64,000 nt of DNA from Carboxylicivirga fragile (GTDB lineage: Bacteria > Bacteroidota > Bacteroidia > Bacteroidales > Marinilabiliaceae): the NCBI GenBank assembly GCA_025499625.1, contig JAFMVD010000033.1, forward strand, positions 1 to 64,000. Reading direction: 5' to 3'. The notes below the pieces were generated by a model that saw only the letters and a list, made by a program, of their open reading frames with translations, searched no databases and was not told where the DNA came from. Shown here piece by piece: positions 1,016-14,890 of this stretch (positions are counted from its first letter, which is position 1; each line of letters starts with the position of its first letter). The position numbers were made by a program, and so were the translations under genes.

Positions 1016-3637
1016 CTATTTCACTCCTGTCCACCGCTTTATCTCATTTAATTTATTTAATGCTTCCACAGGAGTTAGGTTATTTACATCTATATTTAGT
1101 ATTTCATCTCGAATTTGAGTCAGCACAGGATCGTCTAATTGGAAAAAACTTAACTGCATTCCTTCACGATTATTTGAAATATCGTCAATCGGTTTTGACA
1201 AATCCCCTCTTCGATTCGAGTTTTCTAATTCTCCCAGTATATCATTGGCCCTTTTCACCACGCTTTTGGGCATACCGGCCATACGCGCCACATGAATACC
1301 AAAACTATGGTTACTGCCTCCTGGAACAAGCTTACGCAGAAAAATCACCTTATTATCGACTTCCTTTACCGAGACATTATAATTCTTACAACGCTTATGC
1401 GTTTTCTCCATTTCGTTCAGCTCATGATAATGGGTTGCAAATAGCGTTTTGGCGCTTGCCCGCTTACTGTTATGAATGTGCTCAACAATGGACCAGGCAA
1501 TGGAGATACCGTCGTAAGTACTAGTTCCACGTCCTAATTCATCGAACAACACCAAACTTCGTTTAGTTAAGTTATTCAAGATACTGGCCGCCTCGTTCAT
1601 CTCAACCATAAAGGTTGATTCGCCCAAACTAATATTATCAGAAGCCCCAACGCGTGTAAAGATTTTATCCACCACCCCTATCGATGCTGATTCAGCTGGC
1701 ACATAACAACCAATTTGCGCCATTAAAGTAATCAAGGCAGTTTGTCTTAGCAAAGCTGATTTACCTGCCATATTTGGCCCTGTTATGATGATTATTTGCT
1801 GTTTGTCATTATCCAGAAACACATCATTTGGCACATACTCTTCACCAATAGGCAATTGTTTCTCAATAACCGGATGACGACCTGCTTTTATATCAAGCTC
1901 CAAACCGTCGTGAATAACCGGCTGAACAAATTTAGAATCGATGGACAAAGTATTAAAAGCAGTCAAAACATCTATCTTGGCAAGCAAGTTGGCATTTAAT
2001 TGAATGGCCGAAATAAATTCTGAAACAGCCAATACCAGTTCATTGTACAGCTTAGTTTCTATCCCTAATATTTTTTCTTCTGCCCCAAGAATTTTCGCTT
2101 CGTAATCCTTTAATTCTTCTGTAATATATCTTTCGGCGCTTACCAAGGTTTGTTTACGAATCCATTCTTCCGGCACTTTGTCCTTGTGTGTATTTCTAAC
2201 TTCGATGTAGTAACCAAATACATTATTAAAGGCAATCTTGATGCTTGGAATATCCGTTTCTTCACCAAGACGCTGCTGCATATTGGCCAAATAATCTTTA
2301 CCCGAAAATGCTATTTTGCGCAATTCATCCAGCTCTTCAGAAACCCCTTCGCTAATAACGCCTCCTTTCGAAATCAGCACTGGCGGTTCGCTCTGTATTT
2401 CGCCATGAATACGCTCACGAATGGTAATACAAGCATTAAGTTGATCACCAATATATTTCAAATGCTCGTTATCACTTGCCAAACAACCTTCCTTAATTGG
2501 ATCAATGGCATATAAGGCCGTTTTTAATTGCAGTAATTCACGAGGTGTAATTCTGCCAGCAGCTACTTTTGCAACCAGTCGCTCCAAATCACCTATCGAA
2601 TGAAGCGCTTCCGTAATAATATCCTTCAATTCAGGTTGCTTGAAAAAATGCTCAATCACACCCAAACGATCAACAATTGGTTTTACATCTTTCAATGGCA
2701 AAGCCAACCAACGTTTCAACATGCGCGAACCCATCGGACTTATGGTTCTATCAATCACATCAATTAATGATTTCCCTCCCTCATTTAACGAACCAAACAA
2801 CTCAAGATTACGAATGGTAAACTTATCTAACCACACATATTTATCTTCGTCAATACGCCCAAGGCTAACAATGTGCTGAACTTTATGATGCTGGGTTAAA
2901 TCGAGATAATGCATAATGGCACCAGCAGCAGTAATTCCGTAGCTCAGATTATGGACACCAAAACCCTTTAAGGAATTCGTCTCAAAATGCTTGAGCAAAC
3001 GATCGTGTGCCGAATCAGGTGCAAAAGCCCAATCATCGTAGGCATATGTGTAAAATTTTGTTCCAAAAGCATCTTCAAAGATCTGGCGCTTGCCTTTTTC
3101 AAACAAAACTTCTTTTGGTTTGAAGTTGGTCAATAACTTCTCAACGTATTCGAACGAACCCTCCGAAGTTAAAAACTCACCAGTTGAAATATCCAAGAAA
3201 GCTACTCCAGCCACTTTTTTATCGAAATGAACACTCGCCAAAAAGTTATTTTCGCGATGCTCAAGTATATTATCATTAATTGCCACACCAGGTGTTACTA
3301 ACTCCGTAACTCCTCGTTTGACAATTGTTTTTGTCATTTTAGGATCTTCCAGCTGATCACAAACAGCCACTCGCTCACCCGCTCGTACCAACTTTGGCAA
3401 ATAAGTATCTAAGGCATGATGCGGAAAACCAGCCAACTCAACATACGAAGCCGCTCCATTGGCTCTACGTGTTAAAGTTATGCCTAATATCTCAGATGCC
3501 TTAATGGCGTCATCCGAGAATGTTTCATAAAAATCACCTACTCTAAATAGCAAAACAGCATCGGGATATTTTTCCTTAATGCTATAATATTGTTTCATCA
3601 ATGGTGTTTGAACAACGCCTTTTTTTGCTTTTGCCAA
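1016..3637 (-). CDS. mutS: DNA mismatch repair protein MutS
   Basis: 873 residues, the normal length for MutS. The protein recognises base mismatches and small loops in DNA and starts MutL-dependent repair. The N-terminal mismatch-binding domain carries the diagnostic FYE motif at residues 36-38 (RVGDFYETF). Connector, lever and clamp domains follow. The ATPase domain has the Walker A motif GPNMAGKS near 615 (the usual second Gly is Ala), Walker [13 protein letters not shown] near 690 and a conserved ATHYHEL. The ATG at 3637 gives the family's normal N terminus. The gene stands alone on the minus strand. Antisense reading frames across it are shadows. Confidence 0.98.
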
Positions 3638-3884
3638 TGTATATCGTTTTTAACCTTCGTTCTAACTTAATTTATTCAAAACAAACAATTTCAAAAGGGA
3701 TTATTCCAAATAGAAACCATTCAACTCAAACTCTGAAATGCAAAGATAAAAATATCAACAGGTCTTCGAAATGTTTCTTTACTTCACTTCAAATCCTATC
3801 AGAAACCATACTTTTCGTTAATCATCAATTTTTGATTTAGATCATTCTTTTGTATATTTAGACATACCTAAAAGAAAAATCTCT

Positions 3885-4055
3885 ATGAATCAGTTTTTGA
3901 AAAATTTCGGAATTATCTTAATCATTATTGGCGTTGCCGTACTGGCTTTTTACACCATTAATAGCCCTGTAAGTAATACTCCATTGGTATTTGCCGGTAT
4001 TTTAATGATTGGAGGAATCGCCGCTCACGTTATTCTTAACAAACTAATTAGTTAA
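3885..4055 (+). CDS. small two-helix membrane protein, 56 residues
   Basis: Reading frame of 56 codons from the ATG at 3885 to the TAA at 4055. The product starts MNQFLKNFGI. It has a first hydrophobic segment at about residues 9-24 and a second at about 33-53, separated by a short polar turn (INSPVSNTP). Two strongly hydrophobic helices in a frame that ends in a short charged tail are hard to explain by chance. The gene lies alone between mutS and comB, is transcribed away from mutS and converges with comB, whose stop is 11 bases away. No function is recognised. It resembles short membrane proteins that are common as hypotheticals in Bacteroidota. Confidence 0.65.
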   Translation: MNQFLKNFGIILIIIGVAVLAFYTINSPVSNTPLVFAGILMIGGIAAHVILNKLIS

Positions 4056-4814: not shown

Positions 4815-6161
4815 TTAATTTACATTGTAATTTCTACGGTATAAAACTCTGAATCGCCAAAGTAAAAAAACGCCCGCAGAAGCCAAACCAACCAAATACC
4901 CAACCCAGATACCAAGCGGCCCCACATTAAACAAGAATGTTACAACATAACTAGACGGCACTGAAATTAACAAATAAGCTATTCCAGCTCCAATAACGGG
5001 AGCCACAACATCTTCCATTCCTCTTAATATGCCCAATGTAACCACTTGAATTCCATCAAATATCTGAAAGAGTCCGGCAATAAACATTAATCCAGCCGCA
5101 ACTTTAATAACCTCAACATCATCAATAAATAAGGAGGGCAAGAAAAAGCGTAAAAGCAAGAATAAAATACCAGTTAATGTCATAAAGACAACGACTATAT
5201 GCAAGGATGCAAAGGCCGTATTCTTTACTTCTGCAAAAAATTTCTTTCCTCGAAATATGCTCACTTTTATTGTTGTGGCTGAGGCCAAACCGGAGGACAT
5301 CATATAGGTTATACTGGCCAAACTAAGAACAATCTGATGAGCCGCTAAACTAACCGCGCTGATCCACCCCATCATGATACTGCCAATACTAAATGCAAAC
5401 ACTTCTATAACAAACTGTAGACCAATAGGCAAACCTAAACTCCACATCTTCTTAAATGCTACCCAAGAAAAAGCATCATGATTTAATCCTCGAATCGTTT
5501 TATACAGCGACAACTTTGATGTTAAATAAGCAAAGGTCACAGCCATCATAACTCTTGAAACTAAAGTGCCAATACCAGCACCAACCAAGCCTAATTCAGG
5601 CGCACCAAAATGACCGTATATAAGAATGTAGTTTAGAATAACATTTAACACATTACCGCCAATGGTTATAACCATGGCTATTTTAGTATTACTAAGGCCT
5701 TCGGTAAATTGCTTATAAGCATTAAAAAGCTGAAATGGCAAAATTGAAAGAATTAGCAAAATATAGTATGGCTGTGCTTCTGTGGCCACATTTTCCTCTT
5801 GCCCCATATAGGGCATTAAAAAATAAATAGCTCCAGCCACCAAGGTAAGCAGAACACCAATAATTGCATTCGCAAATACCCCTTGCCTGAACCAGTATGC
5901 ACACTTTTCTTTATCCCCACTACCAAAAGCCTTTCCAACCAAAGGCGTTAATGCAAACGATATTCCAACTCCGAAATAAAGCACATTAATGAAGATACTA
6001 TTGGCAAAAGAAGCTGCTGCCAAAGGAGCTGTTCCCACCTGCCCCACCATCAGTGTATCAGCTAAGTTAACTAACATCTGACCAGCTTGGGCCAAAACAA
6101 CTGGCGTAGCTAATTTAATATTAGGCCAATAATGTGCCGTATATCTATTGTGTAGGTTCAT
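4815..6161 (-). CDS. MATE-family multidrug/Na+ efflux transporter
   Basis: 448 residues with about 12 hydrophobic segments, the normal layout of NorM/DinF-like MATE exporters. These inner-membrane proteins export cationic drugs or metabolites in exchange for Na+ or H+. Typical phrases are LATPVVLAQAGQMLVNLADTLMVG-like text in the first helix region (residues 17-40), the PLAAASFANS stretch, and the second half-repeat starting near residue 240 (LGLPIGLQFVIEVFAF). It lies 47 bases downstream of the C39 exporter gene and 14 bases upstream of comB, all on the minus strand. Whether it belongs with the peptide exporter is not shown. Confidence 0.92.
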   Translation of the reverse strand: MNLHNRYTAHYWPNIKLATPVVLAQAGQMLVNLADTLMVGQVGTAPLAAASFANSIFINVLYFGVGISFALTPLVGKAFGSGDKEKCAYWFRQGVFANAIIGVLLTLVAGAIYFLMPYMGQEENVATEAQPYYILLILSILPFQLFNAYKQFTEGLSNTKIAMVITIGGNVLNVILNYILIYGHFGAPELGLVGAGIGTLVSRVMMAVTFAYLTSKLSLYKTIRGLNHDAFSWVAFKKMWSLGLPIGLQFVIEVFAFSIGSIMMGWISAVSLAAHQIVLSLASITYMMSSGLASATTIKVSIFRGKKFFAEVKNTAFASLHIVVVFMTLTGILFLLLRFFLPSLFIDDVEVIKVAAGLMFIAGLFQIFDGIQVVTLGILRGMEDVVAPVIGAGIAYLLISVPSSYVVTFLFNVGPLGIWVGYLVGLASAGVFLLWRFRVLYRRNYNVN

Positions 6162-6208: not shown

Positions 6209-8359
6209 TCAGCTTCGCGTATGATGTTGAATCATTTCGTAGAAACGGCCTTTCTTTTCCAAAAGTTCATCATATGTGCCTGATTCTAAAATGTTGCCTT
6301 TTGAAAAAACATATAGATCGTCAGCTATGTCGATGGTACTTAATCGGTGTGCTACCATCACAACAGTCTTACCTTGCTCGCGAAGTTTTAATATTATATC
6401 TTTTACCTGCTGCTCGGTTCTATCATCTAAAAACGAGGTAGCTTCATCAAATACGTAGATTTCAGGATCGAGATACATAACTCTTGCAATTGCCAAACGT
6501 TGCCTCTGGCCACCCGATAACTGAATAGCATTTTCGCCAAGCCAAGTATATAAGCCCTCTGGCAAAGCATCAATGATATCATGTAAGTTTAAACGATCAA
6601 TAATATCATTGAGTCGCTTCATGTTAGGCGAATAATCTCCCAAAGCAATGTTCTCAATAACATTACCCGCAAAAAGCTCAATGTTTTGAGGAACAACACC
6701 TACAACCTTTCTTAGTTGCGATAGTGGTACATAGCCCAAATCAACACTCCCAATTGTAATGCGACCAGAAGAAATAGGATATAAACCTTGTAATAAATAG
6801 CCAATGGTTGATTTTCCTGAACCGCTATCACCAAGCAATGCTGTAATACTGCCCTGTTTTATTACGAACGACAGATCCTTAAAAAGATCCTGTTCGAGTG
6901 TATACGAAAAGTCAACAGATTTAAAGGACACATCACCCTTTAGTATTAAAGCTTCGGTATTATCACCATCTGCTTCATGCTCACTCTTAAGATCCAATAT
7001 TTCGAACAAACGATCCGAAGCAATCAATGCACCTTGCACCGTTTTATTCATGCCTAATAAACGCGCAATTGGGCCAGTAAAAAAGCTCGTGATTGCGAAA
7101 AAAGACATTAATTCACCTGGGGTTAATTTATTTTCGATTACAATGCCTGCGCCGATCCACAAAACAACAATGGTTAATAATCGATTTATCGTCAACATGG
7201 AAGAACCAGATAGAATATCAATTTTACCCGAACGATAAACTTCCTCCAGAACATTCATTAAACGATCCTCAGACTGCTCGGTAAAATACTTCTCTGCTCC
7301 CATTTGCTTAATGGTTCTACTAGCTCTAAGCGATTCCACCAATTGTATTTCAAGCTCGGCGGTTTTCTCCATTTTTTTTCGCTCAACCTTTCGGTTAACT
7401 CTATTGGTAACAAGAAAAACCAAAAGGTAAACAGGAATAACCAAACTTGTAAGTATAGCTAAATGCCAATTAACAACAAACATTACAAGAAAGGCAATCA
7501 GAACAATCAACACATCAACAACAGCCTCAACGGCAACTTGATTAATGAAATTCCGAATTTTAATAGCATCATTTACCCTTGAAATTAATTCTCCCACACG
7601 CATGCTGTCGAAAAAACGCTGAGGAAGCTTCATCAAATGCTCATAATAACTTGTTATTAAAGTTGTATCAATATTCTGACCAACTCGCAATACAAACCAC
7701 GATTGCAGCATTCCAAGAACAACCTGAAATAAAACCAAGGCAACCATGATAACCCCCATTAAATTAAGAAGATTTTTGTTGTGTCCTACCAATACAAAAT
7801 CAGTAATTTTCTGGATATAAATGGCTGTAGACACTCCAATAATTGAAAACGCCAATGCTCCAAAACCAGATTGCACAAAAACATGTCGATGTGGACGAAC
7901 CAATGAATATAAGCGACGAGTAAGTCCCACTTTTTCATTACCTGCTGTAAAATTCAATGATGGAATCATAAGGATCGCTACACCTGTCCATTTTTCCTTG
8001 AAATCTGTCAAGCTAAGATGCAGCATCTTCCCCTCGGCTGGATCCATAACCTTAACAGCTCTCTTTCCAATTTTATATACAACTACAAAGTGATGTTGCC
8101 CATTTGATAGCTTTAGGTGAGCAATGGCAGGCAGCGGTATTTCAAAAAGTTCATCTGAGGTAATTTCAATTCCTTTGGCATCAAAGCCTAATTTCTCTGC
8201 TGCATGAATTAAACCATAGGCACTTGTCCCAATTCGATTAGTACCTGCTAATTGACGTATTTTCCAAACAGGTAATTTCAAACGATAATACCGGGCTATG
8301 GATGCCAAACAAGCTGCTCCACAATCCGTTTTGTCAAATTGTTGCACATTAAAACTCAT
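6209..8359 (-). CDS. peptidase-C39 ABC exporter (bacteriocin/double-glycine peptide processing and export)
   Basis: 716 residues in three parts. Residues 1-130 are a C39 cysteine peptidase with catalytic Cys13 in QFDKTDCGAACL, His90 in QHHFVVV and Asp106 in VMDPAEG. Residues 160-430 are the six-helix ABC membrane domain. Residues 480-710 are the ATPase with Walker A GDSGSGKS near 510, signature LSGGQRQR near 615 and Walker B ending DEATSFLD. The family cuts leader peptides after a Gly-Gly motif and pumps the released peptide out of the cytoplasm. All catalytic residues are present. It overlaps the HlyD adaptor gene by 4 bases. A Gly-Gly leader peptide is encoded 1.7 kb upstream on the same strand (10084-10218), a likely substrate. 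Confidence 0.95.
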   Translation of the reverse strand: MSFNVQQFDKTDCGAACLASIARYYRLKLPVWKIRQLAGTNRIGTSAYGLIHAAEKLGFDAKGIEITSDELFEIPLPAIAHLKLSNGQHHFVVVYKIGKRAVKVMDPAEGKMLHLSLTDFKEKWTGVAILMIPSLNFTAGNEKVGLTRRLYSLVRPHRHVFVQSGFGALAFSIIGVSTAIYIQKITDFVLVGHNKNLLNLMGVIMVALVLFQVVLGMLQSWFVLRVGQNIDTTLITSYYEHLMKLPQRFFDSMRVGELISRVNDAIKIRNFINQVAVEAVVDVLIVLIAFLVMFVVNWHLAILTSLVIPVYLLVFLVTNRVNRKVERKKMEKTAELEIQLVESLRASRTIKQMGAEKYFTEQSEDRLMNVLEEVYRSGKIDILSGSSMLTINRLLTIVVLWIGAGIVIENKLTPGELMSFFAITSFFTGPIARLLGMNKTVQGALIASDRLFEILDLKSEHEADGDNTEALILKGDVSFKSVDFSYTLEQDLFKDLSFVIKQGSITALLGDSGSGKSTIGYLLQGLYPISSGRITIGSVDLGYVPLSQLRKVVGVVPQNIELFAGNVIENIALGDYSPNMKRLNDIIDRLNLHDIIDALPEGLYTWLGENAIQLSGGQRQRLAIARVMYLDPEIYVFDEATSFLDDRTEQQVKDIILKLREQGKTVVMVAHRLSTIDIADDLYVFSKGNILESGTYDELLEKKGRFYEMIQHHTRS

Positions 8360-9513
8360 GAAGCAGTTTTTGATTTTATTATTTTAGGATTTAGCCAATC
8401 ATCTAGATTATCAAATATTAACTGAAACAAAGTACGCCTTGTAACCACAAAACGCCCAGTCAAGCTCATACCTTTTTTTACTTTCCCCTCCAGCCCATTA
8501 CTTAATTTTAAATAAGATTCTGTCATTCTACTTCTTACAACATAAACGTAAACATCATTAACCTTAGTAACATCTTGCGCAATCTCAATGACCTCACCCA
8601 TCATTAAACCCCATTGGTTATAATTAAAGGCATCAATCTGAAATCTAACTTCCATACCTTCATTAATTAATCCAATATCTGAAGAAGGTACGTAACTCTC
8701 AACTATTAGGTCATCCTCTGGGGATAAGTATGCGATGATATCATTTTCATTTACAAAACTTCCAATTGCCACTCCATTAAAGTCAATAATATGCCCATTA
8801 TAAGGTGCGATTATGCAATGTTGCTGTTTTTCCTGCTGCAGTATTTTAAGGCGTGTAAGCACATCTTGACTCGAAACTGTATAGTTTCTTTTTTGCATTT
8901 CCCATTCTGCCTTAAGCTGTGAATCAAATGCCTTTAGCTCATCTTCCGATTCTTTTAAGTTAAAAGAATCCTCCTGCAATATAACTTCGGCCACCACCCC
9001 TTGCTCAAACAATAACTTTGTTCGATCAAAATCAACACGCAGCTTATTTATTTTACGTTGTAACTTGTTCGAATTAGCTTTAAAGTCAATATATTCCTTC
9101 TGATATAGCTTAGAACGAATTTGCTTATCTGCGCCAGGCCTTACCAGCTCCTCAATATCACGAATATATGTAGTATATAAATCTAATTGCTCTTGCTTTA
9201 TACTTAGCTCACTTTCCAAACCACTTTGATCAAAAACAAGAAGTGTATCTTTTGCATTCACATACAAGTTCTCAGAGATTCTAACTTGTAAAACCTTTGC
9301 GGTAATAGGTACAGCTATCGGACTAATTTTATTAAATGTTTTAACCAGTCCTCTACTTTGAACGGTAACATCAACTTTAATAATAGCTAAGGATATAAAT
9401 GAAACAAAGAATAAAAAAAGAAGTATCCAATACAATAAACTACCCCTGTAATGATAGTTTGAATAAGACACATGCTTACGGAAATTTAACTGCGGTATTT
9501 TAGTTTTGGGCAT
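8356..9513 (-). CDS. HlyD-family adaptor (membrane fusion protein) of the peptide exporter
   Basis: 385 residues with one N-terminal transmembrane helix at about residues 25-46, then a periplasmic part: a biotinyl-lipoyl-like half (KISPIAVPITAKVLQVRI), a coiled coil at about 90-220 rich in Glu, Lys and Leu, and a beta-barrel region (YVPSSDIGLINEGMEVRFQI). Such adaptors connect an inner-membrane exporter to an outer-membrane channel of the TolC type. The stop overlaps the start of the C39 exporter by 4 bases, which implies translational coupling. No TolC-like gene is present in the window, so the outer-membrane partner is probably encoded elsewhere. Confidence 0.93.
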   Translation of the reverse strand: MPKTKIPQLNFRKHVSYSNYHYRGSLLYWILLFLFFVSFISLAIIKVDVTVQSRGLVKTFNKISPIAVPITAKVLQVRISENLYVNAKDTLLVFDQSGLESELSIKQEQLDLYTTYIRDIEELVRPGADKQIRSKLYQKEYIDFKANSNKLQRKINKLRVDFDRTKLLFEQGVVAEVILQEDSFNLKESEDELKAFDSQLKAEWEMQKRNYTVSSQDVLTRLKILQQEKQQHCIIAPYNGHIIDFNGVAIGSFVNENDIIAYLSPEDDLIVESYVPSSDIGLINEGMEVRFQIDAFNYNQWGLMMGEVIEIAQDVTKVNDVYVYVVRSRMTESYLKLSNGLEGKVKKGMSLTGRFVVTRRTLFQLIFDNLDDWLNPKIIKSKTAS

Positions 9514-9624
9514 AGTGGTGTTTCAAAGCGCAATGAAATTACAACTTTTATATGAAACTGCCATGCGGAAGAATATTTCAAAAAGAAAGGGTGTTCTATG
9601 ATAAAAAAAATAATTGTAGATAAA

Positions 9625-9864
9625 CTAATCCTTTATCCACTTCAAACCATCTTTAAAATGGCCAAGATTGATGTATTCAAAAGAGGTTTCATCTTTAGAA
9701 TAGGTAATTTGAGCCCCTAAAGATTTCATCATATCTAAATAAAAATAAAGCATACGAACCGACATGGATAATTTACCAGCCAGTTGTATTGGAGAACCTG
9801 TGCGTTTAAATCGGATTTCTTTATCAATCCAATCGATCGTTCGATTTATTTCAGTTATAGCCAT
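9625..9864 (-). CDS. small winged-helix transcriptional regulator
   Basis: 79 residues. After a helical start (ITEINRTIDWIDKEI) comes a helix-turn-helix: SPIQLAGKLSMSVRMLYFYLDMMKSLG-like text at about residues 23-50, then a wing-like strand (ITYSKDETSFEYIN). This resembles DeoR/HTH_11-type domains, but there is no effector domain. It lies 111 bases before the HlyD gene and 219 bases after the leader-peptide gene, all on one strand, so it probably regulates the peptide/exporter locus. That is inference from position. Confidence 0.75.
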   Translation of the reverse strand: MAITEINRTIDWIDKEIRFKRTGSPIQLAGKLSMSVRMLYFYLDMMKSLGAQITYSKDETSFEYINLGHFKDGLKWIKD

Positions 9865-9895
9865 ATCACAAAATTTACCCGATTAATAAAAGTAG

Positions 9896-9955
9896 GAAAG
9901 AGAAGAAGAGGAGATTAAGAATCGGGAATCTTGGGGGCTCCTGCTTCTTCTTTTC
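9896..9955 (-). promoter_or_regulatory. long purine/pyrimidine inverted repeat between peptide gene and regulator
   Basis: An all-purine arm at 9896-9913 (GAAAGAGAAGAAGAGGAG) faces a nearly complementary, mostly pyrimidine arm at 9938-9955 (CTCCTGCTTCTTCTTTTC). The 24-base loop can pair partly with itself. On the minus transcript the hairpin follows the leader-peptide gene and precedes the winged-helix gene. It could be an attenuator that lets the peptide be made in excess over the exporter. There is no clean T-run, so plain termination is less certain. Confidence 0.5.
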
Positions 9956-10083
9956 ACTAACAGCGGTACCTACGTTAAGATACCATTTCTGAATTGAGAT
10001 ATTTTCTAGCTCGTGCCTTAGCACCTATATCTTTATATTGAATCTGACTCGTCCAAAGTCCTTTTCAATTAAATGGATACTTA

Positions 10084-10218
10084 TTAAATCTTAACCTTAT
10101 TACTTTCATCTTTAGCAATTCCATCTCCACCTACAATCTTTTTTAAAAAATCGCTTTGTTTTGCGTCAAACTTGTTAAATTGATTGCGTTTTTTAATATT
10201 GTACTTGATTGCTTTCAT
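10084..10218 (-). CDS. double-glycine leader peptide, probable substrate of the C39 exporter
   Basis: A 44-codon gene, start ATG at 10218 and stop TAA ending at 10084. The product begins MKAIKYNIKKRNQF, has a charged leader and reaches FLKKIVGG at residues 24-31. Cleavage after Gly31 would release the 13-residue peptide DGIAKDESNKVKI. Hydrophobic residues at -4 (Ile) and -7 (Leu) fit the double-glycine rule for C39 peptidases. The core has no Cys and no Thr and is hydrophilic, which argues against a lanthipeptide or pore-forming bacteriocin and suits a signal peptide or unmodified product. It lies upstream of the winged-helix, HlyD and C39 exporter genes on the same strand. Its start is 94 bases from the divergent TPR-CHAT gene. 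Gene reality is inferred from motif plus context. Confidence 0.75.
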   Translation of the reverse strand: MKAIKYNIKKRNQFNKFDAKQSDFLKKIVGGDGIAKDESNKVKI

Positions 10219-10279
10219 CACACATTGTTTTAATTAGTTTACATGGGTTAATTGCAAAAAGATAGAATCGTAACACCTT

Positions 10280-10310
10280 TTTTTAATTTATTTTTAATTT
10301 ATTTTTAAAC
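10280..10310 (+). repeat. 11-bp A/T tandem repeat directly before the TPR-CHAT gene
   Basis: Two exact copies of TTTTTAATTTA (10280-10290, 10291-10301) and a third partial copy (TTTTTAAAC) end two bases before the ATG at 10313. The period is close to one helical turn, so the DNA may be bent. It lies in the 94-base divergent region shared with the leader-peptide gene. Confidence 0.6.
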
Positions 10311-10312
10311 TC

Positions 10313-13300
10313 ATGCTTCAAATAAGGTTCATCATATTGATTATCTTGATATTAACCCTACCTAAAAACAATTCCGCACAAACAACTATCACTAACATAA
10401 TAATAATTAAGAACGAATTCAACTCCCATTCTTACGAATCAGTTATTCAAAAAGGAAACGATTATTTTATAAGTAAGAACAAAACATTACTAGAGGATGA
10501 GGAATTACACGCGCTTGCCTGTGTTTTAAAATCATTCAACTATACAGAAAGAGCTAAAGAAGCTACAGATTTTCTAACCATTATAGAACAAAAACAAAAA
10601 TCCGTTTTATTTGATAACTACATCCAACTCTATAAAGGCTCTTTTTATATCATATTAAATAAGAGAGAAGAGGCTATATCACTACTAGAAGATCTACTAA
10701 AAACAGGAGTTAAAGAATTCCTTGTAGACAGTGTTTTGACTAAAATCTACTCCAACCTTGGAACTATTCATAGTATTAATAAGGAGCACAAGAGTGCACT
10801 CGATTATTTTGAACAAGCATTCAATATTGACAAGAGATTACTTATTAAAACCGGAGATTATGAAAATTTTAATACAGGTGCAGCCAGTTACTTACAAAAA
10901 TTGGGTAATGTATACTGTCAATATGAAAAGGTAATTGAGCAATATCATGAAATCTTTGCCTACCCTTTTAATCATGACATTGAAACCCATAATTATTATC
11001 TTTTCGCCACCTACATAACTGTCTGTAGTTATATAGGCAATGATGCTGATTTTGAGAAATACACTAATCGTCTCGAAAAATTTTACTTAGAACAATCACC
11101 AAACCTAAAGAGCGATCTGGCCTTCTTATATTTTAAAAAAGGAGATTATTTATTTATTCAAAAAAAATATACCGAAGCAAACTCCTACTATAAAAAAGCT
11201 ATTTCACTTATGGTAGCAGAAGAATCCTACCATAACAAACGACCTAATTCTTTTAAATTATTGGCAATAAGCAACCTAAAACTTGGAAAAGAAAAATTGT
11301 CAATTTATTACGCCAAAGAAGCAATTAAAGAAAGTAAAATTCGTAATGGCAAACGAACCCATGAGTATTATGCAATTGCTGCACAGGTCAACGCATTTTT
11401 TAATAAACCAAGGATTGCCTTGGCTTATTTAGATTCTGCAATAATCTATAGGGATCATTTTACCAATTCTAAATACAAAAGTGATAAAAGATTTGAAGAA
11501 CAATTAGCAAAGGTAAATATACACTTAAAGAATTATTCAAAAGCACTTTATCACTTCGAAGAACTAAATGAAATTTTAAACCATGATGCCAATTATGGAC
11601 AGTTTGAGTTCTGGGAAAACAAAAATAACATTGCTCATTGCTACATTGGCATGGAGCAGTATGAAACAGCTATTTTACTTATAAAAGAATTACATGATGA
11701 AATCATTTCCCAATTTCAAAAAGATATCGAAACCAATCCTCAATCACACATCGCACGTTTATTTCGTCGAGCAAACTTAAATTTATCCAAAGCACTTTAT
11801 CTATATTATAAAAAAACACAGAAGAAAGACGATCTGGAAGAAGCATATAAACACTTATCACAAGCCAATCAATCCATTGATTATTTACGTTCTCAACTAA
11901 ATTTTGATAGTGACCAGATGGCTACAGGTGAATCATATGCCGAATACATTGAACTTGGAATGAAAATAAACAGTGACTTATATGCATTAACAAAAGACAA
12001 GACTTACTTAGAGTCAAGTTATGAATTTGTACAAAAAGGCAAATCGTACTCTCTTCTAATAGGCGTTAATGATAAACAATGGAAAATTAACGCTGGCCTA
12101 CCAGCCGAACTAATCAAAGACGAAGGTTTCTTTAAAGGTCGGGTGCAATTTTATCAAAATGAATATGAAACGGAGAAATTTAGTTCGGAACCACGAGAAG
12201 ATATTCTTAGTCACCTGGATGAACGCATGAGTTTTTATATGCAAAAGATGGATAGCATTAATGCAATTATCAAAACTAATTATCCCAGGTATTTCCAACT
12301 AAAATATGCCCCACAATACGCATCTATTGAAGACATCCAAAAACGACTTGGGGGCAACCATGTTCTATTGGACTATTACCTACTAAAAAATCAAATCCAT
12401 ACATACACTATAATACCCAATACTTTTCATCACCATATTTCCGAAGTTGACAGCAGCTTTCACCAAAACTTAAATCTTGTTATCAACGAAGTGGCTTCAC
12501 CATTTATTGCAGCAGGAAATACGATACAACGAATACAAGAATTTGCCAAGGCATCACATCAACTCTACCATGCACTTTTTGAAAATAATCCTGTGGATTT
12601 AAAAAACAAAAACCTAATAGTTGTTCCACATCAAGAGTTGGCTTATTTACCTTTTGAAACTTTACTCACCAAAGATGTGTCAGAAGCTAAACCAGATTTT
12701 AGACGTTATCCTTGGTTATTGAATGAAAACACAATCTCTTATACTTATAATGCCTCATTGCTTCCTAAGCATTCAGAAAAAGCTATTACTTTTAATAAAG
12801 TTACGTCCTTCGCGCCTAAATACACAGGAAGTACTTCGCAACCTGATTCCATTTTAATAGCCATAAGAAGCACTTTAAACAATTTTTTAATGCCATTAAA
12901 TGCAGCTCAGGAGGAAATACAAAACATTGACAAATTATTCAGGTCAGAAGTATACAATAACGAACAAGCAACAAAAGCTAATTTTTTAAATACCATTGAC
13001 GAGAACAATGTGCTTCACTTGGCAATGCACTCTCTCAATGATGAAGTGCAACCTTTAAATTCTCAACTCGTTTTTTCAGCGAACAACGACACATCGGATG
13101 TATTAAAGGCATTTGAAATATACAACTACAACATAGAGTCACCAATGGTTGTACTAAGTGCCTGTAATACCGGGCGAGGCAAGAAGAAATCTGGAGAAGG
13201 ACTTATTAGTTTGGCAAGGGCCTTTACATTTTCGGGTGTTCAAACTCAAATAATGACTTTATGGCCTGTACATGATAAATCAGGAGCCACCTTAACCGAA

Positions 13301-13543
13301 CTCTTTTATAAAAACCTCAAGAATGATAACTTCAAGGATGTGGCCATGCAAAAAGCCAAACAAGATTTTATTGCTAACTCCGATGGTATTAGATCTCATC
13401 CATACTACTGGGCAAACTACGTAGTTTCGGGCAATACCAGTCCAATAAAGCAAGGCTCACATCTCATATGGTATTTATTAGCGAGTATCGGATTAATAAG
13501 CTTAATCACTGTTCTTTTAATTAAACTAAAAAAGCGCCATTGA
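10313..13543 (+). CDS. TPR-CHAT protein (caspase-like), secreted and membrane-anchored
   Basis: 1076 residues. A signal-like hydrophobic N terminus (about residues 2-22) is followed by many TPR-type helical repeats to about 560, a coiled linker, and a C-terminal CHAT domain at about 720-1040. The caspase-type pair is intact: His906 in LHLAMHS and Cys951 in VLSACNTG. A transmembrane helix lies at about 1051-1069 and ends in LKKRH, which suggests the protease faces the periplasm and is held in the inner membrane. CHAT domains are peptidases of the caspase/separase clan. The gene diverges from the leader-peptide gene and converges with an anti-sigma-like/sigma pair, its stop being inside a shared terminator. 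Base use is AT-rich compared with housekeeping neighbours. The substrate is unknown. Confidence 0.9.
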   Translation: MLQIRFIILIILILTLPKNNSAQTTITNIIIIKNEFNSHSYESVIQKGNDYFISKNKTLLEDEELHALACVLKSFNYTERAKEATDFLTIIEQKQKSVLFDNYIQLYKGSFYIILNKREEAISLLEDLLKTGVKEFLVDSVLTKIYSNLGTIHSINKEHKSALDYFEQAFNIDKRLLIKTGDYENFNTGAASYLQKLGNVYCQYEKVIEQYHEIFAYPFNHDIETHNYYLFATYITVCSYIGNDADFEKYTNRLEKFYLEQSPNLKSDLAFLYFKKGDYLFIQKKYTEANSYYKKAISLMVAEESYHNKRPNSFKLLAISNLKLGKEKLSIYYAKEAIKESKIRNGKRTHEYYAIAAQVNAFFNKPRIALAYLDSAIIYRDHFTNSKYKSDKRFEEQLAKVNIHLKNYSKALYHFEELNEILNHDANYGQFEFWENKNNIAHCYIGMEQYETAILLIKELHDEIISQFQKDIETNPQSHIARLFRRANLNLSKALYLYYKKTQKKDDLEEAYKHLSQANQSIDYLRSQLNFDSDQMATGESYAEYIELGMKINSDLYALTKDKTYLESSYEFVQKGKSYSLLIGVNDKQWKINAGLPAELIKDEGFFKGRVQFYQNEYETEKFSSEPREDILSHLDERMSFYMQKMDSINAIIKTNYPRYFQLKYAPQYASIEDIQKRLGGNHVLLDYYLLKNQIHTYTIIPNTFHHHISEVDSSFHQNLNLVINEVASPFIAAGNTIQRIQEFAKASHQLYHALFENNPVDLKNKNLIVVPHQELAYLPFETLLTKDVSEAKPDFRRYPWLLNENTISYTYNASLLPKHSEKAITFNKVTSFAPKYTGSTSQPDSILIAIRSTLNNFLMPLNAAQEEIQNIDKLFRSEVYNNEQATKANFLNTIDENNVLHLAMHSLNDEVQPLNSQLVFSANNDTSDVLKAFEIYNYNIESPMVVLSACNTGRGKKKSGEGLISLARAFTFSGVQTQIMTLWPVHDKSGATLTELFYKNLKNDNFKDVAMQKAKQDFIANSDGIRSHPYYWANYVVSGNTSPIKQGSHLIWYLLASIGLISLITVLLIKLKKRH

Positions 13544-13562
13544 AAAGAAATTCAATGACGCT
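13533..13562. terminator. bidirectional terminator between TPR-CHAT and the anti-sigma-like gene
   Basis: A 12-bp stem (13533-13544 with 13551-13562) with one mismatch on the plus transcript and a G-U pair on the minus transcript. T-rich tracts lie on both sides. The stop codon of the CHAT gene (13541-13543) lies inside the stem. Confidence 0.75.
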
Positions 13563-13584
13563 CGACTCTTATTCTTATCTTCTA

Positions 13585-14319
13585 TTATAAATCTAATTTC
13601 TTTAGTATTTCGGATGCTTTTGCTGAATATTGGTTATTACCTTTAACAACTTCATTCAATAACACCTCTGCCTTACTCTCATCATTATCTTTCAAATAAC
13701 ACAAGGCTAAATACCAGTTAATTTGATCGGAGTAGAATATTGCATCATTATTAATGCCATTTAATATCCCTTTGGCTTTGTCAAAATCACCCATCTCCAT
13801 GTAACACAAAGCACTGAAAAAACCTGACAATTCAATATTTTCACGTTCTAGCCTTTCGAATTCACTTAATGCCAATGCCATATTACCATTCTGGTAAAAA
13901 CCAATTGCCTTATCCAATTGATTAAAATGACCTTCACCGCGAACAACCATATCCGTTCCATAAGGCTCATAATATTCGCTAAATGCGTAACTACCCGAGT
14001 ATTCTGAATTTTGGAAAAGCCCCAACAAACTAGCCAAACCCAACACCACCACAACTGAAGCCGCTGCCATCCATACTCCCGGATGTATTCGATGCCTCTT
14101 ATCTTGTTCCTCTACAAATTCTTGACTAATATCTTTTAACTGCTGCCTGAAATCCATAGTATCATCGTCGCCATTCTCAATAGCAAACAATACTTCCTGC
14201 TGAAGTCTGATATCCTCAAGCAATTGTTCGTTATTATCAACATCAGCCTTAAGCTCATCTCTCTCGTCCTTGCTTAAGTCACCGGAAAACAACTCCAATA
14301 TTTTATCGTTATAATCCAT
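13585..14319 (-). CDS. membrane TPR protein, anti-sigma-like
   Basis: 244 residues. The N-terminal 80 residues are acidic and helical (ILELFSGDLSKDERDELKADV), like the cytoplasmic part of Bacteroidota anti-sigma factors. A single transmembrane helix follows at about 82-102. The rest is TPR-like (ALSEFERLE, YLALCYLKDNDESKAE) and would lie in the periplasm. The start overlaps the end of the sigma factor gene by 11 bases, the usual order for a sigma/anti-sigma pair. Acting as an anti-sigma factor is inferred from order and topology. The nearest gene downstream is the TPR-CHAT protease on the other strand. Confidence 0.75.
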   Translation of the reverse strand: MDYNDKILELFSGDLSKDERDELKADVDNNEQLLEDIRLQQEVLFAIENGDDDTMDFRQQLKDISQEFVEEQDKRHRIHPGVWMAAASVVVVLGLASLLGLFQNSEYSGSYAFSEYYEPYGTDMVVRGEGHFNQLDKAIGFYQNGNMALALSEFERLERENIELSGFFSALCYMEMGDFDKAKGILNGINNDAIFYSDQINWYLALCYLKDNDESKAEVLLNEVVKGNNQYSAKASEILKKLDL

Positions 14320-14890
14320 ATTTCAATTCTTTAAATTGTGGATCAGCCTTTATCATCTCTATTAATTTCTTGTTACACATCGATCGGCGATTTTTCATGT
14401 ATTGAACTGAACTAAATGCCAATTCAGATGTGATATCTTCATTTGAGAAACCAATTGAAACGAGGCGTAGTACATCCTGACAAACCTTTGTAATTTTCTT
14501 AAAATATTTCAAATAAAGCAAACGTCTTTTTTCGTAAAGCTTCTTTTCTTCAATTCCATCAGCCTCAATCAATACATTGTCACCAATACCATTTAGTATT
14601 TTTTGCTCACTCTTGCGCTTGCGTAGCTCATTCAACCATAAATTTTTACATATAGAATAAAAGTAAGTGCTGAATGCGCAAGTTAATTGAGGTTTCTCTG
14701 TTTTTGAATAAATAGCAACAAAGGCCTCATGAATTATATTCATGGCCTCATCCTTATTTCCACTGTTATCAGACACAAAGCTTTGAATAGGTCCCCAAAC
14801 CATATTCATGATGTGTTTTATAATCTTTCCTTCACGATTATACACCCCTTCTAACAATTCGTTATCTGTATAACGCTCTTTCTTCATCAC
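14309..14890 (-). CDS. ECF-type RNA polymerase sigma factor
   Basis: 193 residues. Region 2 is visible in DEAMNIIHEAFVAIYSK and AFSTYFYSICKNLWLNELRKRK (about residues 46-93). Region 4 with its helix-turn-helix is in CQDVLRLVSIGFSNEDITSELAFSSVQYMKNRRSMCNKKL (about 137-178, read in two halves). This is the ECF layout used by Bacteroidota for surface and stress regulons. The next gene, overlapping by 11 bases, encodes a membrane protein that probably holds it inactive. The regulon is unknown; the neighbouring CHAT gene is a candidate target. Confidence 0.9.
   Translation of the reverse strand: MMKKERYTDNELLEGVYNREGKIIKHIMNMVWGPIQSFVSDNSGNKDEAMNIIHEAFVAIYSKTEKPQLTCAFSTYFYSICKNLWLNELRKRKSEQKILNGIGDNVLIEADGIEEKKLYEKRRLLYLKYFKKITKVCQDVLRLVSIGFSNEDITSELAFSSVQYMKNRRSMCNKKLIEMIKADPQFKELKYGL

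Follow-up and report, generated by a model that had tools for sequence, protein, structure and literature searches.

The stretch of DNA considered here, referred to throughout as the window, comprises 64,000 nucleotides of a Carboxylicivirga fragile contig (JAFMVD010000033.1), in which a short gene at positions 10084-10218 of the minus strand encodes a double-glycine (GG) leader peptide. It is a genuine gene, kept in relatives and found together with an exporter, a caspase-like protease of the CHAT type, and a sigma factor. It consists of 44 codons and a stop, begins with ATG, and specifies the sequence MKAIKYNIKKRNQFNKFDAKQSDFLKKIVGGDGIAKDESNKVKI, laid out as a 31-residue leader ending in FLKKIVGG and a predicted core of 13 residues, DGIAKDESNKVKI. 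Downstream on the same strand are found a small protein of winged-helix type (9625-9864; 79 amino acids), an HlyD-family adaptor (8356-9513; PF13437, E=8.6e-15), and a peptidase-containing ATP-binding cassette (ABC) exporter with a C39 domain (6209-8359; Peptidase_C39, PF03412, E=1.9e-36), followed by a transporter named by reading as a MATE-family member (4815-6161). Divergent from the peptide, a plus-strand gene (10313-13543) encodes a TPR-CHAT caspase-like protease of 1076 residues (PF12770, E=8.6e-52, together with TPR matches). Beyond CHAT, and convergent with it, the minus strand carries genes for a one-span TPR protein of 244 residues (13585-14319) and for a sigma factor of the extracytoplasmic function (ECF) type (14309-14890; PF04542, E=1.1e-6, 28.8 bits against a cut-off of 24). 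The gap between the CHAT and peptide genes contains a promoter-like element, GGTGTTACG-N12-TGCAATTAA (10248-10277, minus strand), which resembles an ECF-type -35/-10 pair and lies 29 bp before the peptide ATG.

Searches with the C39-containing part of the exporter against 60 genomes, the window's own among them, identified orthologous exporters in 14 relatives (62-72% identity over that part), 13 from the same genus and one from another (G022). The loci of all 14 were taken, and in every one the order CHAT / peptide-winged helix-HlyD-exporter-MATE was retained, with two copies each of the peptide and winged-helix genes in G022. The peptide profile (E=2.6e-5) added a homologue in genome G032, where the CHAT, TPR and sigma factor genes adjoin it at the end of a contig, bringing the total to 16 genomes: 14 of the window's genus and two of other genera of the family. 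When the peptide profile was run over 296 genomes, E values of 2.6e-5 or lower were returned by these 16 alone; partial-profile matches in seven others (E 0.014-0.046) were excluded from the count. Residues M1, K10, Q13, K16, F17, K20, L25, K26, K27, G30 and G31 are invariant across the 16 copies, all of which possess I or V at position -4, L at -7 and the GG pair, and processing after Gly31 is predicted. The ratio of non-synonymous to synonymous differences (pN/pS) is 0.33 for the leader over the 16 copies and 0.32 for the last four codons, which read K-hydrophobic-K/Q-hydrophobic in most copies; for the middle of the core, compared over 26 pairs of equal length, the median is 0.81 and 18 pairs have at least 0.7.

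The preliminary description of the locus had proposed the 44-codon frame, the same-strand order of regulator, HlyD adaptor and C39 exporter, and a hydrophilic, Cys-free product of 13 residues outside known families, and had looked to relatives for conservation beside C39 exporters. The frame is confirmed by homologues at the same position in relatives (14 of 14 with an orthologous-exporter locus) and by selection on the leader, and the order downstream of the peptide and the C39 domain are as described. The predicted core is 31% hydrophobic, with a net charge of 0 and no Cys; Pfam and NCBIfam returned no match to the peptide at E up to 1, and the sole match from PHROGs was phrog_12286 at E=0.24. 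The winged-helix label stands in part: a homologue in locus L062 matches HTH_11 (PF08279, E=8.9e-7), but the window protein has no significant Pfam match. The winged-helix gene, the MATE neighbour, and the same-strand order with the C39 exporter were each found in 15/15 loci, although the part of the MATE transporter in the system is uncertain. A whole-genome search with the exporter's C39-containing part gave a single match at E<=1e-15, and exporter residues 5-710 align with the solved exporter 4ry2. Reading through the operon brought up neither an immunity nor a modification gene that could be recognised, modification enzymes having had no dedicated search.

The TPR-CHAT protease possesses hydrophobic segments at both ends, a CHAT domain placed after the TPR region, and residues His906 and Cys951 that are invariant in 17 rows of the alignment; it shows a fold match to Csx29 and is the only PF12770 match in the genome. 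The neighbouring TPR protein comprises an N-terminal helical part, a hydrophobic segment (residues 78-96) present in 32 of 35 rows, and C-terminal TPR, with fold searches returning TPR folds only and barely covering the N-terminal half. Its pairing with the sigma factor, its topology and a weak profile match suggest that it is a putative anti-sigma factor. The short sigma factor carries sigma region 2, and also matches TIGR02985 (E=4.3e-10) below that model's cut-off. Among the 60 genomes, CHAT matches at E<1e-190 were confined to G000-G013, G022 and G032, and sigma factor matches of at least 61% identity occurred in the same 16 genomes as the peptide and the close CHAT; in four (G001, G002, G004 and G006) the sigma and TPR genes lie elsewhere in the genome, still together. 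At the locus itself, no histidine kinase or cytoplasmic TPR regulator was found among the six neighbouring proteins scanned (6209-14890); a receptor may be encoded elsewhere in the genome. The preliminary description had cast the peptide as a signal-like product of the adjoining C39 exporter, which fits the core and the lack of a recognised immunity or modification gene, but it had missed the likely partners, namely the CHAT protease, the TPR protein, the sigma factor and the promoter-like element.

Alignment of the CHAT-peptide gap identified GGTGTTACG-N12-TGCAATTAAC upstream of the peptide gene in 15 loci, slightly changed in L039; the element is not upstream of the second peptide copy in G022, and is the sole such site in the window at up to three mismatches. 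We scanned the 60 genomes with the pattern GTGTTACG-N12-TGCWATTAA, allowing up to one mismatch, and found it in 16/16 genomes with a close sigma factor (1-12 sites each, the peptide site always included and in G012 the sole one), compared with 2/44 genomes without one, each with one site. A reversed-pattern control gave single matches in four genomes. The element thus tracks the sigma factor (Fisher p=1e-12), a figure whose weight is reduced by 14 of the 16 genomes belonging to one genus. In the stretches examined we counted 79 sites, partly non-independent, located before, among others, the peptide, winged-helix-type genes, LytTR-type proteins, and several families without useful Pfam names. 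Among eight loci of the clade-B exporter in the genus and G022 (L055-L058, L060, L062, L063 and L066, of which L063 is a 3.9-kb contig), the element lies just before the winged-helix-type gene and HlyD in four (L055, L057, L060 and L062). The winged-helix gene after the element is itself GG-tailed in L055, L057 and L060, and a pattern search found other GG peptides in the same three loci and none in L062. When five other regulon proteins were searched against Pfam, the only match above cut-off was DUF6261 (E=6.4e-8). As separate observations from L107 (4390), L115, L117, L121, L126, L228 and others, the element precedes regulators of LytTR type and families of no recognised function, all named by eye. 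These families include one of about 225 residues (MNAQQRNK-type) and one of 117 residues (MKIRNEVLNK-type), the latter followed in four loci by a GTPase-like gene.

Other readings of the element were considered. No sigma-70-type promoter was predicted in 9500-10400, where 4.1 were expected from shuffles, and a LytTR-type direct-repeat reading was rejected by eye for unsuitable spacing. In the window's genus the element could instead be a binding site of the winged-helix protein, which would count against its use by the sigma factor; this is less likely because remote loci, L127, L157 and L158 among them, gave no winged-helix match near the peptide and nonetheless possess a related motif.

The same plan was identified in remote Bacteroidota, within a set comprising the best 80 of 540 CHAT relatives plus loci taken earlier: a CHAT gene, a GG peptide preceded by a related -35/-10 motif, sigma and TPR genes, and sometimes a C39 exporter with HlyD. 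In all five remote loci with a C39 exporter nearby (L127, L152, L157, L158 and L170), the GG peptide lies between CHAT and the exporter and the sigma factor on the far side of CHAT, accompanied there by TPR in four. A strict GG pattern placed a peptide no more than 700 bp upstream of 11/42 remote CHAT genes, compared with 9/274 other gene starts; seven of these nine are the same CHAT peptides reached from a far neighbour, the other two are the L159 peptide, situated 638-787 bp before CHAT, and the remaining 265 starts gave none. The peptide and CHAT share a strand in L144, and genomes G042 and G049 combine a CHAT-peptide locus, lacking an exporter in the stretch examined, with a sigma-TPR-C39 locus elsewhere. 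Fifteen tabulated cores span 12-25 residues, with a net acidic charge in 13, D or E first in 12, a hydrophobic fraction of 0.12-0.47, and no Cys in 13. An inspection by eye of 12 CHAT loci for non-GG peptides yielded none that was convincing.

A profile of the TPR protein matched 197 of 393 genomes of the order, and 40 top loci were picked by hand with the peptide unseen, each from a different genome; genomes that had been used before were passed over, as were some others. Four were contigs already seen (L267, L268, L269 and L271), leaving 36, of which 27 had a CHAT-TPR match (one, L305, being a 478-residue fragment that was at first tabulated as TPR alone). A GG peptide was found near the CHAT start in 12 of the 27, which is not an unbiased frequency because some of the loci behind the TPR profile bear the peptide. 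Nine of these peptides are divergent from CHAT and three (L292, L298 and L303) are on its strand; one GG match was found away from the CHAT start (L270, at 11555). C39 exporters accompany 6/12 peptide loci versus 0/15 peptide-less ones (Fisher p=0.003), or 4/8 versus 0/10 by genus (p=0.023). Several of the new cores comprise an acidic stretch followed by a hydrophobic motif, often with Pro-Pro (DDDLWPP, DEAWL, DDDIWL, EDILIP, DLIIPP), and two are longer, at 38 and 39 residues. Tandem peptides also occur, two in L272 and four in L302, the latter (3037-3958) sharing the core end PTIDGDFDYWPEPEV and lying beside CHAT and a C39 exporter.

We searched the 130 bp upstream of 10 remote peptides by Gibbs sampling, excluding L154 (a near-duplicate of L152), L158a (a downstream tandem copy) and L159 (whose upstream stretch holds another peptide copy). 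The resulting motif, GGGTTACC-N10-12-(-10 box), scored 128-134 in four runs, compared with a mean of 106.7 (standard deviation 3.3, maximum 115.3) over 200 dinucleotide shuffles at equal settings. Applied to 12 further peptides, the matrix from the 10 sites reached p<0.05 in nine (combined p=7e-12), and in five of eight genera when each was represented by its worst locus (combined 2e-6). In three families without a known training member it reached this level at 4/6 loci, no family being given for training loci L151, L170 and L173. That the genus element is related to the remote motif was judged by eye, because the remote matrix scores the genus element poorly; the top site under that matrix is a different one from the genus element both in L050 (p=0.095) and in L103 (p=0.047). 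Sites scoring 14 or more were found before 0/18 CHAT starts, 4/26 sigma genes and 8/129 other starts. Six of those eight other starts were listed, and four of the six are genes beside CHAT in peptide-less loci; two such proteins (L282 and L304), and a similar one in L131, carry a sorting tail of the type IX secretion system (T9SS) according to Pfam.

These three are T9SS-sorted CarboxypepD_reg proteins of 411-441 residues (L131, 6894-8129; L282, 12165-13490; L304, 5565-6815), encoded beside CHAT in loci with no GG peptide, and in L282 and L304 the remote promoter motif lies upstream of the gene. Dockerin matches were obtained for two T9SS-sorted proteins (one weak), along with a weak cohesin match in one. 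The CHAT-sigma module thus seems to drive, and perhaps to watch, an exported product, of which the GG peptide is one of at least two kinds.

The occurrence of peptides beside the same protease and sigma-factor switch suggests an unrecognised peptide signalling circuit, for which linkage and promoter are well supported. Under this model, the C39 domain of the neighbouring exporter would, by homology, cut the precursor after Gly-Gly, and the core would leave the cytoplasm through the exporter and HlyD. The ECF sigma factor would transcribe the peptide-winged helix-HlyD-exporter operon from GTGTTACG-N12-TGCAATTAA, a use of the element for which the indirect evidence is strong. The membrane-spanning TPR protein would hold the sigma factor as its anti-sigma, and the envelope-located TPR-CHAT protease would cut that anti-sigma factor, by analogy with the Csx29-Csx30-CASP-sigma system, in which Csx29 cuts an ECF sigma inhibitor. 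The exported peptide would then be the ligand that switches the CHAT/anti-sigma pair on or off, closing an autoregulatory loop that may serve as a cell-cell or self-export signal; we infer the signalling role, its sign and the receptor from linkage and promoters. That the exported peptide acts through the protease and the anti-sigma on the sigma factor transcribing its own operon is, in our judgement, an evenly balanced proposition. Peptide-controlled antagonism is a plausible output, because in some genomes of the genus the element precedes other winged-helix-HlyD-C39 clusters, some with bacteriocin-like GG peptides. The broader proposal, given slightly under even chances, is of a new peptide communication in several Bacteroidota families, whereby C39-exported, mostly acidic GG peptides would be read by envelope TPR-CHAT proteases, the TPR anti-sigma would be cut and the ECF sigma freed, and this sigma factor would transcribe the peptide gene, an autoinduction, along with bacteriocin-like clusters in places.

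Several results weigh against this circuit. Under the remote matrix no site upstream of the window's peptide outscores the genus element, yet that element does no better than shuffles (p=0.53), and L280, L281 and L302 fall short of p<0.05. The motif also stands before the gene of a T9SS-type secreted protein in some peptide-less CHAT loci, and the match of the TPR protein to the anti-sigma profile NF052375 is weak (E=0.033). Genome G026 (72% complete) possesses a remote CHAT (28% identity) and sigma factor (42%), and there CHAT adjoins MATE, neither a peptide nor an exporter having been seen between the two. GG peptides were missing from 15 of the 27 CHAT loci, and the peptide is therefore not essential to the CHAT/sigma module; six of the 12 new peptide loci have no C39 exporter in the stretch examined. 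The 12 new loci are not independent draws, because they represent eight genera and five families, two of which (f8 and f97) also supplied motif training loci, and because the profile derives partly from peptide-bearing loci.

The rival that survives best, though we think it unlikely, takes the peptide as the output of the system: CHAT, anti-sigma and sigma factor would sense envelope stress or competition and turn on a short effector, such as an antimicrobial or matrix peptide, outside the cell. The promoter evidence agrees with this, placing the sigma factor upstream of the peptide and nothing more. So do several peptide-less loci, where the motif stands before genes beside CHAT; two of these, together with the similar L131 gene, encode T9SS-type proteins, which gives the impression that a secreted product is often what CHAT-sigma modules drive. 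The element also stands before half of the eight clade-B loci. However, the hydrophobic fraction and general lack of Cys of the 15 tabulated cores set them apart from known membrane-active bacteriocins, reading of the operon revealed no immunity or modification gene, and the peptide stands at the CHAT start, in L292, L298 and L303 immediately upstream of CHAT in the same orientation and in L302 as tandem copies with a common core end. Rather improbable is a role for the peptide as substrate or pseudosubstrate inhibitor of CHAT, in the manner of securin, such that the peptide keeps the protease off for as long as export runs and export failure releases it; the system would then sense secretion state rather than neighbours. 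Against this, no cleavage-site-like motif is common to all cores, those of the genus mostly ending K-hydrophobic-K/Q-hydrophobic and many others ending acidic-hydrophobic, often with Pro-Pro. Far less probable still is an ordinary class II bacteriocin-like GG peptide with CHAT and sigma factor as coincidental neighbours. Clade-B exporter relatives do carry peptides that look bacteriocin-like by eye, and Bacteroidales C39 exporters with GG peptides are usually treated as bacteriocin or ribosomally synthesized and post-translationally modified peptide (RiPP) systems, as in PMC10352776. However, the linkage to CHAT and sigma factor recurs in remote loci with a shared promoter motif, and the window core, from its hydrophobicity, charge and lack of Cys and with an immunity gene judged by reading, does not have the character of class II. 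A chance open frame, for which a length of 44 codons and the lack of a family match might speak, has a negligible probability and was ruled out by conservation in 16 genomes, fixed position, purifying selection on the leader, and the conserved element preceding it.

Between the peptide and winged-helix genes, two RNA hairpins were predicted on the minus strand, hairpin 1 at 9967-9982 and the covarying hairpin 2 at 9901-9951. In an alignment of 13 of 15 loci (L040 and L048 excluded), the hairpins show 22 two-sided changes compared with a shuffled mean of 8.2 (equalled in 0/500 shuffles), 94% paired cells versus 38-55% in slid controls, and a covariation of 0.294 versus 0.156 when shuffled (0/500). 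Taking both together, 7/18 pairs have a two-sided change (22/500 shuffles reach seven), and the number of pair types is not above that of shuffles. No Rfam match was found in 9400-10400, and the one terminator-like site in 9500-10400 is on the plus strand, within hairpin 2. Hairpin 2 is possibly an attenuator or processing site, and the hairpins may set the ratio of peptide to exporter. As a separate observation, some HTH_11-like winged-helix proteins carry a C-terminal GG leader and short tail (e.g. ...DELSKINGGIYTSVHFFGQVLF), including those at L055 (5516-5821), L057 (6088-6423), L060 (5625-5936), L062 (9630-9980), L066 (1494-1820), L077 (8501-8845) and others. The tail is present in 18/41 homologue rows, two of which (L026 and L028) are shorter readings of two others, and is absent from the window protein, beside which a separate GG peptide gene is found instead. 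Such a protein could be a DNA-binding protein that the C39 peptidase trims, or its tail could be exported. Elsewhere in the window, an open reading frame at 63-446 resembles by eye the N-terminal part of a tyrosine recombinase and is possibly a mobile-element remnant.

Each part of the locus is of a known kind, and the assembly itself was not found in searches limited to open-access full texts, which turned up no paper in which a caspase-like protease connects a GG peptide to an ECF sigma factor; parts of the CHAT-ECF link may already be covered in ECF classification literature or DdvA structure work. The TPR receptors of the RRNPP/Rap group are cytoplasmic and read re-imported peptides, unlike the window's TPR region, which is predicted to lie outside the cytoplasm and is fused to CHAT. 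The competence-stimulating peptide (CSP) system of ComC and ComA, from Gram-positive quorum sensing, is alike in its GG leader with hydrophobic residues at -4, -7 and -15, C39 ABC exporter, short hydrophilic product, and possible control of bacteriocin-like clusters; for the window exporter, matches were obtained to ComA (8hf4) at 3e-107 and, at 7.8e-148, to 4ry2, described as an 'ABC-type bacteriocin transporter'. It differs in that the window peptide has no family match and its locus has, in place of a recognised histidine kinase and response regulator, TPR-CHAT, TPR anti-sigma-like and ECF sigma proteins. The bacteroidetocins and GG-Bacteroidales RiPP precursors (TIGR04149) likewise combine Bacteroidota GG leaders with C39 exporters, discussed as bacteriocin/RiPP systems in PMC10352776, but differ in their cores, with one of three remote peptides scanned matching TIGR04149 below cut-off (E=0.0057). 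For DdvA (8rot, 8rw5), which in Myxococcus xanthus serves as a transmembrane anti-sigma factor, the input signal was described as unknown in 2015 (PMC4374960); in the window, by contrast, TPR-CHAT and the putative anti-sigma are separate and a GG peptide gene is present. In the type III-E CRISPR system Craspase, the TPR-CHAT protease Csx29 acts with Csx30 and CASP-sigma, cutting the inhibitor of an ECF sigma factor (PMC10028731). The window protease differs in having hydrophobic ends of envelope type, the part of the inhibitor would fall to a TPR protein that spans the membrane, and a GG peptide is encoded; no Cas7-11 (gRAMP) RNA-guided effector or crRNA was noticed on reading the window's list of open reading frames, no dedicated search having been made. 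If the proposed circuit is true, it would give overlooked genes of about 40-70 codons in several Bacteroidota families a testable role, and envelope TPR-CHAT/ECF modules without a known input would gain a class of candidate ligands. Signalling at the cell surface would also be linked to the Craspase switch of CRISPR, the circuit being an outward-facing, peptide-gated relative of that protease-to-sigma switch.
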